From a virus: DNA of 25,537 nucleotides. A program made the translations under genes and the position numbers. Location: IMG/VR virus record IMGVR_UViG_3300028027_000218, positions 1-25,537 of that record; one strand, 5' to 3'. How positions within the stretch are numbered: the stretch's first letter is position 1; the number at the start of each line of letters is the position of its first letter. The notes beneath the pieces were generated by a model that saw only the letters and a program-made list of their open reading frames with translations, had not been told where the DNA came from and made no database searches. Positions 21,175-25,321 of this stretch are shown piece by piece.

Positions 21175-21230
21175 TCTACAAACTAAAGCATGTCCGTCAT
21201 AGTCGGGGTTGAGAAGTGCTGTAAACCAAA

Positions 21231-21267
21231 CTGTTTATATAGTAAGCGTGAACTATATAATATACAG
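21231..21267 (+). promoter_or_regulatory. Stable leader hairpin
   Basis: TTATATAGT (21235-21243) and ACTATATAA (21252-21260) pair perfectly over 9 bp around an 8-base loop, and outer CTGT/ACAG (21231-21234 with 21264-21267) add four pairs. ACTGTTTATATA at the start also occurs at 19141-19152 in the control region (as shared ACTGTTTATATA), so it may include a promoter element. Confidence 0.5.
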
Positions 21268-22260: not shown

Positions 22261-22506
22261 ATGGAAAGACTGATTTACAATGGGTGTTATTACACTCATA
22301 AAACAAGTTATAGAACTCCATTTGGAGGTAATACTGTAACTTTTGAATTTCTAAAAATTGCATTGAAAACTGGTGTAATTGAAAAGATCAACCACAAAGA
22401 GTGGGATGATATGATAGAAAAAGTAGGTAATAAAATTGGGTTTGACAAACTAAATAATACAGCCTACAATTTAGTAAATGAGGGCGGGCTAGAGCCTAGT
22501 TGGTAA
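22261..22506 (+). CDS. Unknown protein (81 aa)
   Basis: MERLIYNGCYYTHKTSYRT, then TVTFEFLKIALKTGVIE and a helical C-terminus ending GLEPSW. A compact alpha/beta domain; no motif recognised. Close to both neighbours in the small-gene run. Confidence 0.55.
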   Translation: MERLIYNGCYYTHKTSYRTPFGGNTVTFEFLKIALKTGVIEKINHKEWDDMIEKVGNKIGFDKLNNTAYNLVNEGGLEPSW

Positions 22507-22526
22507 TTAAAATTAAAATAAACACT

Positions 22527-22742
22527 ATGAAAAAACAAGAAAAAAGAAAGCGCATCAACCAGGGTGTTGGTATGTTTGTAACTACTAAGGTAGCCGTGAA
22601 GATTAACCACTTTCCTCGCAAGAAAAAGAGAAAAGAAAATTACGAACCTCAAGAGTTTGTAATCAAAATAATCTCTAATAATATTAGAGACCGTCATAGA
22701 GATGGCGAAACACAAATAGCAAAATTAATGATTGAATTATAA
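22527..22742 (+). CDS. Small basic protein (71 aa)
   Basis: Start at ATG 22527 in a CACTATGAAA context; a longer frame needs TTG. Very basic (MKKQEKRKRINQG, FPRKKKRKEN), so it may bind nucleic acid. Its last 13 codons (…IAKLMIEL) recur, degenerate, at 22956-22994. Confidence 0.55.
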   Translation: MKKQEKRKRINQGVGMFVTTKVAVKINHFPRKKKRKENYEPQEFVIKIISNNIRDRHRDGETQIAKLMIEL

Positions 22743-22758
22743 TTTAAAAACAAAAGCC

Positions 22759-22932
22759 ATGAAAACTAAAAGAACTAAAAGAGAAGTAATTAACGTAAAT
22801 GTAACCGTTAAAACTAAAAGAAACGTTGGGGATAGACCAAAACCTTGGGTACTTTCTTCATCTGTAGAAGATCAATTAATTCTAGACCAGGAGTATAACC
22901 GCATACTACTTAAAATAGATATGATGTTCTAA
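22759..22932 (+). CDS. Small basic protein (57 aa)
   Basis: Start at ATG 22759 in a GCCATGAAA context (MKTKRTKREVINVNVTVK). Basic N-terminus, then SSVEDQLILDQEYNRILLK as a helix. The stop TAA at 22930-22932 abuts the degenerate hammerhead. Unknown function. Confidence 0.5.
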   Translation: MKTKRTKREVINVNVTVKTKRNVGDRPKPWVLSSSVEDQLILDQEYNRILLKIDMMF

Positions 22933-22962
22933 GCTATACTGATGAGGCCTTAATGGTCGAAA
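22933..22962 (+). ncRNA. Degenerate hammerhead ribozyme half-copy
   Basis: Stem I 5' strand GCTATA (22933-22938), core CTGATGA (22939-22945), stem II GGCC/GGTC around TTAAT (22946-22958) and GAAA (22959-22962) are present. Stem II differs from the full copy at 23145-23201 but still pairs, with a G-T pair. No stem III hairpin or TATAGC strand follows; instead the duplicated gene tail does. Likely broken by recombination and not self-cleaving. Confidence 0.65.
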
Positions 22963-22997
22963 CTAGAATTGCAAAATTAATGATTAATTTATAAGCC

Positions 22998-23165
22998 ATG
23001 AGAAATATAATATTGAACCCAGAGGAAACTTTGAGGTTAGATTACGAGTATAATTGGAAGGATTTAGTAACCTTTGAAGATTATCTTTCAATAAAAGCAC
23101 AACAAGAAGTGTTTGAAAGTAATCAAAAAGGTTATGAAGTAGCAGCTATACTGACGAGATCTTAA
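22998..23165 (+). CDS. Small protein (55 aa) ending inside hammerhead
   Basis: Starts in a GCCATGAGAAA context (MRNIILNPEETLRLDYEY). Acidic, helical, ending VAAILTRS with a TAA at 23163-23165. Its last eight codons encode the stem I and core bases of the ribozyme at 23145-23201, so coding and ribozyme constraints overlap. No family recognised. Confidence 0.5.
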   Translation: MRNIILNPEETLRLDYEYNWKDLVTFEDYLSIKAQQEVFESNQKGYEVAAILTRS

Positions 23166-23201
23166 TGATCGAAACCAACCTGTAATGGGTTGGTCTATAG
23201 C
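23145..23201 (+). ncRNA. Type I hammerhead ribozyme
   Basis: All parts are present. Stem I GCTATA (23145-23150) pairs perfectly with TATAGC (23196-23201). Core CTGACGA (23151-23157) fits CUGANGA. Stem II GATC-TTAAT-GATC (23158-23170). GAAA at 23171-23174. Stem III CCAACC (23175-23180) with GGTTGG (23188-23193). Then T-C (23194-23195), making the GUC cleavage triplet; the expected cut is between 23195 and 23196. The open ends are in stem I, which defines type I. It overlaps the end of the 55-aa gene and lies 97 bases before the next start, so cleavage would give that gene's mRNA a defined 5' end. Phage hammerheads are known; catalytic activity here is not tested. Confidence 0.9.
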
Positions 23202-23207
23202 AAATTT

Positions 23208-23259
23208 GGGGGCCTCTGCGCGCGCAGTCTTCCCCCCGGCCTTGCTGTGTTTTGCCGGG
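23208..23259 (+). promoter_or_regulatory. GC-rich leader hairpins after ribozyme cut site
   Basis: Just 12 bases past the cut lie GGGGG (23208-23212) and CCCCCC (23232-23237) enclosing the palindrome CTGCGCGCGCAG (23216-23227), then CCCGGC (23235-23240) pairing with GCCGGG (23254-23259). The two helices cannot both form fully. They may protect the cleaved 5' end or control translation. Confidence 0.5.
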
Positions 23260-23297
23260 ACAGGGTGTCACGGTATGTATATTTAAAAGTTTAAAAA

Positions 23298-23759
23298 ATG
23301 TTAGAATTAAGTCAAAACAGAGCATTTGCTCAAGTACCAGCAACATCAATCAAGTCTAAGAAACTTACTAGTGGTGACCGTATCAAGATCCTTGATGTTA
23401 AGTTACAGTCTGTAAGAGGTAAAGACGATGTGTTCAACGATGTGTTGATTTGTGAAGGACCAGAAGGTACGCTAAGTGTTCCATTGAGAGAGTATTTTAA
23501 ATTCAAATTTAATGACTCTTCTATGTACACAAAAGAAGGTGTAGCTGAAGGTACGATTAAGATCCACACGGAGATTGAAATTGTTGAATCGAAAGACCGT
23601 ACGGATAATGAAGGTGACGTTGTTTATCCTTCTAATGCGTACTTGGACTTCCAAAAAGTAATCAATCAAGAGATGGATTATGATTATGGGAAACTAAAGG
23701 CTTCAGGATTCAAACCTGGATTTGAGCCAGTACAGGATTACACAGTACGTGTAATCTAA
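23298..23759 (+). CDS. Unknown, probably highly expressed protein (153 aa)
   Basis: MLELSQNRAFAQVPATSIK begins an OB- or beta-barrel-like chain (KILDVKLQSVRGKDDVFND, VLICEGPEGTLSVPLREYF, GTIKIHTEIEIVESK), then a helix (YLDFQKVINQ) and a C-terminal strand. Codon choice looks less AT-biased than the neighbours (GGT, GTA, CGT, ACG), which with a dedicated ribozyme-processed leader and its own strong terminator suggests high expression. A single-stranded-nucleic-acid-binding role is possible but I see no defining motif. Confidence 0.6.
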   Translation: MLELSQNRAFAQVPATSIKSKKLTSGDRIKILDVKLQSVRGKDDVFNDVLICEGPEGTLSVPLREYFKFKFNDSSMYTKEGVAEGTIKIHTEIEIVESKDRTDNEGDVVYPSNAYLDFQKVINQEMDYDYGKLKASGFKPGFEPVQDYTVRVI

Positions 23760-23767
23760 GTATGAGT

Positions 23768-23801
23768 GAGGAGTACCTACGGGTATTCCTCATTTTTTTT
23801 T
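23768..23801 (+). terminator. Intrinsic terminator after 153-aa gene
   Basis: A 10-bp stem (GAGGAGTACC 23768-23777 with GGTATTCCTC 23782-23791) and a T9 tract (23793-23801). The same 3' arm ending TTCCTCA-T tract recurs at 24825-24840. Confidence 0.9.
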
Positions 23802-23860
23802 ATACGGGGGTTGGTTGGCAGAGTGATAAGGCCGAACTCGTTAATTTTAAAATTTGCACC

Positions 23861-24097
23861 ATGAAAACAATGAAATTTTACGAGCGTCAAGAACAGGATT
23901 TTCAACAACTGTTTGTAGCTCAATACCAGGATATCAAGAGTGATATTGTGGAAGATATCAAAGAAGTTGAAGCGGATATACTCATGGCTAATCTTGTAGA
24001 AGATTACATAGAATGTGTTAACTTAAATGGCGTGTTGGCCACGCTGAAATGCGTAAAAAGACAATACGAGGTTCTCATACAGAAGAATCTAAACTAA
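23861..24097 (+). CDS. Small coiled-coil protein (78 aa)
   Basis: Start at ATG 23861 in a CACCATGAAA context (MKTMKFYERQEQDF). A longer frame from 23762 crosses the terminator and is unlikely. It is helical and acidic (DIKSDIVEDIKEVEADI) with a coil. Its TAA is directly followed by the structured RNA. Function unknown. Confidence 0.55.
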   Translation: MKTMKFYERQEQDFQQLFVAQYQDIKSDIVEDIKEVEADILMANLVEDYIECVNLNGVLATLKCVKRQYEVLIQKNLN

Positions 24098-24098
24098 T

Positions 24099-24840
24099 CA
24101 TATGCCCTTAGTTACCAATGTAGTATGTGTTTTTCATATATGTTTTTTGGTTATTACTTTGTAACGTGCTACATCGAAGGCTGGTAACCTTCCCTAGGGG
24201 CTATGATTGAGTGGGTAGTAGTTGTAATATATTCCTTCTCCTAAAAGGTTAAAAGAATCTGATATGAGTCAGCAAACTTTTAACAGTTGATAGGGCGGTT
24301 TAAGTGATAGACTTCAAATGTATTACAACTCAGTGCGGAGGAAAAACATGGCCAGGTGAGGGTGAATCCTTTCCTGGTCACTATGCAGAAAATCCAGGGG
24401 TCTGATCAACTCAGGGTGTGCATGGCTAGTCAATAAGTCCATGTGAAGGGTAGTGTCGGGCTCAAGCTGGCATCGGGTGTTCAGCCTAGCAGGTAATGAA
24501 ACGGTTGTCGTTGCAGTATCAGCGACTAGGTGTCTATGACTAATCCCATAGAATGGTGAACAAACTCTACGGCCAAGATACAAACGAGAGGGGCTGCTAC
24601 TAGCTCAAACCTGTAGACGGAGTGCTGATGCCGAAACAAGACAGTATGATAGAGGGTATACGTGCCTCCGCGTAGTTTCAAGGCTACAATCAGGAGAGTA
24701 GATCTGGTAGATGGCCATCGTTTGTAAAACGTTCGCCTCGGGTTCGATTCTCGACTACCCACTATGCCTCTTATTTGAGGATTTTCGTGGTGGAAAAGTA
24801 AAGATGGGGGACACTGTAATGGTGTTCCTCATTTTTTTTT
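24099..24840 (+). ncRNA. Large structured non-coding RNA candidate (~740 nt)
   Basis: No plausible gene over ~800 bases, yet dense complementarity. A 5' domain pairs 24099-24111 with 24194-24205 (12 pairs, one bulge), TTACC 24112-24116 with GGTAA 24183-24187, and 24118-24128 with 24164-24174 (11 pairs, two G-T). Then AGTGGGTAGT (24210-24219) pairs perfectly with ACTACCCACT (24754-24763), closing a 544-nt domain. Inside: 24221-24230 with 24320-24329 (10 pairs), 24248-24255 with 24277-24284, 24350-24356 with 24373-24379, and 24468-24476 with 24625-24633 (9 pairs, two wobble). Near the 3' end a tRNA T-arm-like loop (TTCGATT, 24743-24749) abuts the closing helix. A terminator follows. Size, phage setting and T-loop recall GOLLD or ROOL RNA; class unproven. 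Confidence 0.75.
24806..24840 (+). terminator. Intrinsic terminator at end of structured RNA
   Basis: A 10-bp stem (24806-24815 with 24821-24830, three wobble pairs) around GTAAT, then A and a T9 run (24832-24840). A preceding CCTC-TTATTT-GAGG hairpin (24767-24780) may help define the RNA 3' end. Confidence 0.9.
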
Positions 24841-24895
24841 GTTCGCGACTGAGATAAAAGAGTGATATGTAAATTTAAAACTAAAATGTAAAATT

Positions 24896-25321
24896 ATGGA
24901 ACCAACACAAATGAGATTATCTTCTGCAAAGTTCAGAGGAATGACAGTAGGAGTAGTAGAGAACGCTCACGGCGATGTATGCATCTACAACCCCTTCACA
25001 AAGGATAATATGCACGTTAGCAACCTGTTAAGATGGGATGGTAATGAGCCTATAATAGTAGATCCGTATCTTTTAGAAGTAGAAGAGGCTATAAGTATAC
25101 TATGTAGTAACCCTATACTAGATTTTAATGTACAAGATCTTGAGTATAGAGGAACTTTTGAAGAAATAGAGTTTCATAATGCTACTACTAAAGATATGGT
25201 AGAAGAAATTCGTATGAAAGACCATGCTATGGGTTTTTTACAGCATATCTGGAATTTAGGTACAGGTGACGCCGATATAGACTTAGATGCTGAGTACGCT
25301 GAATATGTAAACTCCAAGTAA
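24896..25321 (+). CDS. Unknown acidic protein (141 aa)
   Basis: MEPTQMRLSSAKFRGMTV begins a strand-rich N-terminal ~60 residues (GVVENAHGDVCIYNPF), then an acidic helical C-terminus ending DIDLDAEYAEYVNSK. It follows the RNA terminator after a 55-base A/T-rich leader, so it likely has its own promoter. No motif recognised. Confidence 0.6.
   Translation: MEPTQMRLSSAKFRGMTVGVVENAHGDVCIYNPFTKDNMHVSNLLRWDGNEPIIVDPYLLEVEEAISILCSNPILDFNVQDLEYRGTFEEIEFHNATTKDMVEEIRMKDHAMGFLQHIWNLGTGDADIDLDAEYAEYVNSK

Follow-up and report, generated by a model that had tools for sequence, protein, structure and literature searches.

A predicted type I hammerhead ribozyme between two phage genes belongs to a large group of phage hammerheads overlooked by Rfam

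A hammerhead ribozyme was found between two consecutive genes, on their coding strand, in the window, which is the whole stretch of viral DNA analyzed (25,537 nt, the 25.5-kb record IMGVR_UViG_3300028027_000218). On sequence evidence, positions 23145-23201 were confirmed as a hammerhead ribozyme, which is predicted to cleave itself. It probably cuts a polycistronic phage mRNA between a 55-aa gene and a 153-aa gene. The analysis established the ribozyme's sequence and structure, its covariation, its family and its placement; that it cuts, and what this does to the messages, is inferred. The features are as follows.

22932..22963, + strand: ribozyme half copy with stem I 5' strand, core, stem II and CGAAAC; no proper cut site
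22998..23165, + strand: upstream 55-aa gene, stop UAA 23163-23165 in loop II
23145..23201, + strand: type I hammerhead ribozyme, bounded by the two strands of stem I (sequence, fold, held-out covariance model)
23145-23150 and 23196-23201, + strand: stem I, 6 bp, GCUAUA/UAUAGC (sequence)
23151..23157, + strand: conserved core CUGACGA, C3-A9 (sequence; invariant in alignments except N7)
23158..23170, + strand: stem II, 4 bp, GAUC 23158-23161/GAUC 23167-23170, loop UUAAU (sequence, covariation)
23171-23173, + strand: core GAA (sequence)
23174..23194, + strand: stem III hairpin ACCAACCU/GGGUUGGU, loop GUAAU (fold; compensated relative to locus L033)
23195..23196, + strand: predicted cleavage site C17/U1.1 (triplet GUC, G23193 U23194 C23195)
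23196..23297, + strand: leader of the downstream message after the predicted cut, 102 nt
23203..23275, + strand: structured, GC-rich part of the leader, containing AGUCUUCC and CGGCC..GCCGG
23298..23759, + strand: downstream 153-aa gene

The window copy contained the CUGANGA core, GAA and an NUH cut triplet at a three-way junction. Its sequence and fold both gave a type I topology, with an open stem I and loops closing stems II and III. The MFE fold with flanks was exactly the hammerhead structure (z -3.25), and none of 200 shuffles was equally stable. The earlier note, made from the sequence alone, had claimed a complete type I hammerhead with a 6-bp stem I and a self-complementary stem II. 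Both points were borne out: the core bases, three helices and GUC were all present in the sequence, fold and held-out model, and the stem I and stem II strands were read directly. Its cut site at 23195/23196 agreed with the position predicted from GUC at 23193-23195. The stem III hairpin that it had described was also found, but its length was 8 bp rather than 6 bp (23174-23181/23187-23194), counting A15.1-U16.1 and a terminal U-G. Loop II U-N-A-A-U and an A flanking stem I were conserved (93% and 84% on the two sides); a tertiary contact of loop II with the stem I side may exist.

The earlier note had set in advance that a negative covariance search with the Rfam Hammerhead I model would refute the ribozyme. 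This search gave no match above threshold. The window was unmatched by Hammerhead_1 (RF00163, cut-off 34 bits) even at E 10, although it shares the core and type I topology of that family. No family in Rfam 15 reached its gathering score in the window. The best sub-threshold match was the RAGATH-1 hammerhead (RF03152), with 30.0 bits against a gathering cut-off of 56.3. RF03152 has the same type I permutation and the core CUGAUGAG...CGAAAC...GUC, whereas the upstream hairpin of its model was poorly formed in the window (2 of 4 aligned pairs were non-standard). Rfam also left 18 loci with clear hammerheads unreported. Because it is equally blind to these loci, the missing match does not refute the ribozyme. 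Two covariance models were built, R1 including the window and R2 excluding it. With R2, the window scored 65.9 bits (E 5.7e-16) and L033 scored 59.1 bits; E-values from R2 are rough, since the calibration was short. L033 belongs to the second record with the gene arrangement of the window (G009, loci L032 and L033) and was the only close relative among the matches listed.

Relatives were searched for with patterns. The first one fixed the core, the loop UUAAU and TATA of stem I, left stem III and three bases per side of stem II free, and matched 32 viral stretches. Looser patterns matched 68 viral stretches and then more than 120 among the matches listed. About 9 of the 68 could not be parsed as hammerheads, in line with chance matches. 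A structural parse of all retrieved sequence gave at least 293 hammerheads, at least 251 of them distinct and all of type I; the strict parse of a reversed-sequence control (1.83 Mb) gave none. Most records had one to three copies. One record, G038, had nine between successive small genes within 4.3 kb (L212, G038:C1:3500-10500), and in most of these copies the stop codon TAA formed the end of a stem I strand. In bacterial genomes, a strict pattern had no match and a looser one matched six stretches. The crAss-like phage genomes MT835470, PQ006092 and NC_055900 had no hammerhead. Sixteen viral records, most of them fragments, shared the terminase or the 55-aa protein of the phage, and only G009 among them had a hammerhead. 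Judged by these sequence matches, the window ribozyme is one of a large group of uncultured-phage hammerheads overlooked by Rfam.

The helices were backed by compensatory change. In 22 distinct aligned sequences, stem II was paired in every cell (100%); its three unconstrained pairs each had 3-5 pair types, and three of its four pairs had two-sided changes. This pairing is informative because the search pattern left stem II open. In the covariation test, 98.2% of cells were paired versus 70.5% after shuffling, and cells with two-sided changes numbered 119 versus 29. The covariation was well above both shuffled and slid controls. The statistics of stem I partly reflect the search itself, in which core letters were fixed by the patterns and stems were required by the parse; stem II in the 22-sequence alignment and the gene positions are free of that bias.

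The placement of the ribozymes between genes was very regular. Among the matches listed (251 distinct sequences), an ATG lay 10-40 nt past the cut in 84% versus 19% of random positions, an upstream stop lay within -15 to +8 of the ribozyme in 65% versus 5.6%, and both were in place in 54% versus 1.6%. An ORF started within 150 nt in 247 distinct sequences; the start was ATG in 246 of them, and the median distance from cut to ATG was 25 nt (IQR 22-31.5). The median end of the upstream ORFs was 1 nt inside stem I. Stops clustered at nt 0/+1 and at three further positions: at +6, a UAA provides the last bases of the stem I strand; at +10, the stop is the UGA within CUGA; at +20/+21, it is the UAA in loop II. 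The last three positions held 56, 25 and 23 of 245 upstream stops, respectively. The downstream genes were highly diverse and mostly without known function; one of ten scanned encoded an anti-restriction protein, which recalls an ardA neighbor reported in 2011. The window copy was atypical in two ways. Its cut lies 102 nt from the ATG versus the family median of 25, and its upstream ORF stops within the core region, at UAA in loop II, where the earlier note had correctly seen the ORF end inside the ribozyme.

The 55-aa protein had a homologue with 77% identity in L216/L217, where the gene ends without a ribozyme. The differences between the two genes were distributed over codon positions as 9/4/16, mostly in the third. 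This homologue and the third-position bias indicated that the 55-aa ORF is probably genuine. In the window, its final codons are ribozyme sequence.

These observations fit a splitting of the transcript. The ribozyme would fold during transcription and cut the polycistronic RNA between C23195 and U23196; transcription across the gap between the two genes is assumed here. The upstream message would retain the ribozyme core and end in the stem II and stem III hairpins with a 2',3'-cyclic phosphate. The message of the 153-aa gene would begin with a 5'-OH at U23196, and the structured leader element would thereby be placed at its extreme 5' end. In this way, the ribozyme would uncouple the stability and translation of neighboring genes in one transcript.

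Ribosomes might instead decide when the cut occurs. Those finishing at the UAA of loop II would hold the ribozyme unfolded, and cutting would take place only without translation of the 55-aa gene. The stop is in loop II in both the window and L033, and stops across the family are often in stem I, CUGA or loop II. However, most upstream ORFs end before the core, i.e., translation is kept out of it, and loop II and CUGA hold stop codons anyway, so an intruding ORF must often end there. We consider this switch rather unlikely. A link between translation and ribozyme folding is nevertheless plausible, because overlap of stop and ribozyme is common across the family.

In the transcript-splitting reading, the 153-aa gene would receive a defined leader. 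The earlier note had made this claim, and positions 23196..23297, given the predicted cut, support it. The 102-nt leader is unusually long. Its GC-rich element was conserved in front of genes homologous to the 153-aa gene. In G063 and G062, where these genes have no hammerhead, the corresponding position had three occurrences of AGUCUUCC, exact or nearly so. The element is thus separate from the hammerhead, and it could be a protein-binding leader. Its loci are 23203-23275 in the window, L239:1376-1470 and L240:1197-1290. The 153-aa protein had no Pfam or PHROG match, and its structure model was of low confidence (pLDDT 54.6).

Once cut, the leader might also act as a switch. Its stem I strand, now free, would pair downstream, which would make the cut irreversible and fold or free the RBS. 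In the MFE fold of the window, the first 8 nt of the leader (23196-23203) paired with 23242-23249, and one marine sub-lineage paired UAUAGC/GCUAU and UAUGGC/GCCAU around GGAG. In L033, however, the MFE fold formed just 5 of the 8 pairs, and such pairing occurred in 36 of 128 representatives versus 29 ± 4 with swapped partners. We regard this exchange as improbable. As a feature of the whole family, an alternative hairpin of the 3' product was rejected, since it did not exceed the swap control.

The comparison with L033 was informative about the stems of the ribozyme. The two sequences were identical from 23007 to 23150 (144 nt) and had two differences in the 80 nt from GUC. Between these blocks, stem II differed at six positions, N7 differed, and stem III and its loop were different. 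All stem I and stem II pairs were kept, and stem III was rebuilt with other pairs. Among 11 locus pairs with closely similar flanks, stem II or stem III differed in 10. These comparisons showed that constraint acts on the structure and that the stems turn over fast. Another pair, L016:1093-1159 and L025:1720-1786, had identical flanks and stem III, with a stem II that was different yet fully paired, which reads as quick compensated turnover of one helix. Exchange at CUGA and CGAAAC, both conserved, is only an idea for how the stems turn over.

The half copy at 22932 was considered as an active ribozyme and rejected: stem III was unformed, and no GUC was present at stem I. Precisely at CGAAAC, it runs into a diverged repeat of 22706-22742, the end of ORF 22500-22742. 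This fusion (22932-22994 with 22706-22742) resembles recombination at a core sequence. The hammerhead family, the half copy and the second structured leader element were absent from the earlier note.

A ribozyme brought in by a mobile block and now disused, i.e., a decayed or neutral relic, would account for its patchy occurrence among relatives (G009 only of the 16 records, most of them fragments) and for the broken half copy 212 nt upstream. The complete core, and stems changed by compensated steps within an otherwise identical block, argue against it, and we consider it very unlikely. That the match arose by chance or that protein-coding constraint mimics a ribozyme has next to no probability: the region does overlap the end of the real 55-aa ORF, but the R2 E-value and the absence of matches in the reversed-sequence control speak against a chance match, the helices covary, and ribozyme-less homologues of the 55-aa gene have different ends.

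The terminase of the phage resembled those of crAss-like phages at 24-28% identity, and by this match a Bacteroidota host is likely. A DNA similarity search with 22500-24100 found nothing in known phages, and the open-access literature contained no paper linking hammerheads with crAss-like phages. Several other features were seen in the window. A long non-coding region (24091-24900; L033:4801-5420) had 571 identities and 36 mismatches with its counterpart, and about 200 more bases in the window. In it, pairing is possible between TGGGTAG (near 24209) and CTACCCA (near 24761), the latter following a T-arm-like stretch, GGTTCGATTC. The region had no tRNA, tmRNA or Rfam match. A near-identical intergenic segment (AAGCATGTCCGTCATAGTCGGGGTTGAGAAGTGCTGTAAACC) was located at 21175-21235 and at about 1945-2005 of L033. 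A perfect 23-nt inverted repeat (24944-24966/25515-25537), whose second arm is the extreme end of the contig, is possibly a fold-back assembly artefact.

Hammerheads of phages and prophages are known to lie between phage genes, often several per operon, and transcript splitting was proposed for them (PMC3088659, Perreault et al. 2011). In that study, tandem phage-type hammerheads cut in vitro, and one set did so in E. coli. In haloviruses HF1/HF2, the hammerhead HHphage precedes a start codon by 13 nt, and a mapped 5' end was within 3 nt of the halovirus hammerhead cut (PMC3088659). The window group shares the intergenic position in phages and the frequent multiple copies per operon. Compared by description, it differs in coming from uncultured phage contigs, in consisting solely of type I ribozymes, whose stem I has 6 bp and whose 4-bp stem II carries a UNAAU-like loop, in its very regular placement relative to stop and start, and in reaching nine copies in 4.3 kb. 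HDV-like theta ribozymes, as described in PMC10879173, are also self-cleaving RNAs of uncultured gut phages; they are of another ribozyme class and are tied to tRNA-based recoding.

Hammerhead splitting of phage operons has thus been proposed since 2011, and the window is a further example, from a group absent from Rfam. Tentatively, and at less than even odds, a sizeable uncatalogued group of type I phage hammerheads may punctuate operons, in which a stop at or in stem I and a cut about 25 nt before the start would couple the end of translation to cutting; fast turnover of stems II and III, perhaps by core exchange, might also have made the half copy at 22932. Three points would surprise a specialist: the group is missing from Rfam, it is placed very regularly, and nine copies form one array. 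An RNA library in wide use misses an abundant group of ribozymes. At least 251 distinct, precisely placed examples, up to nine of them in one operon, make operon splitting directly testable.
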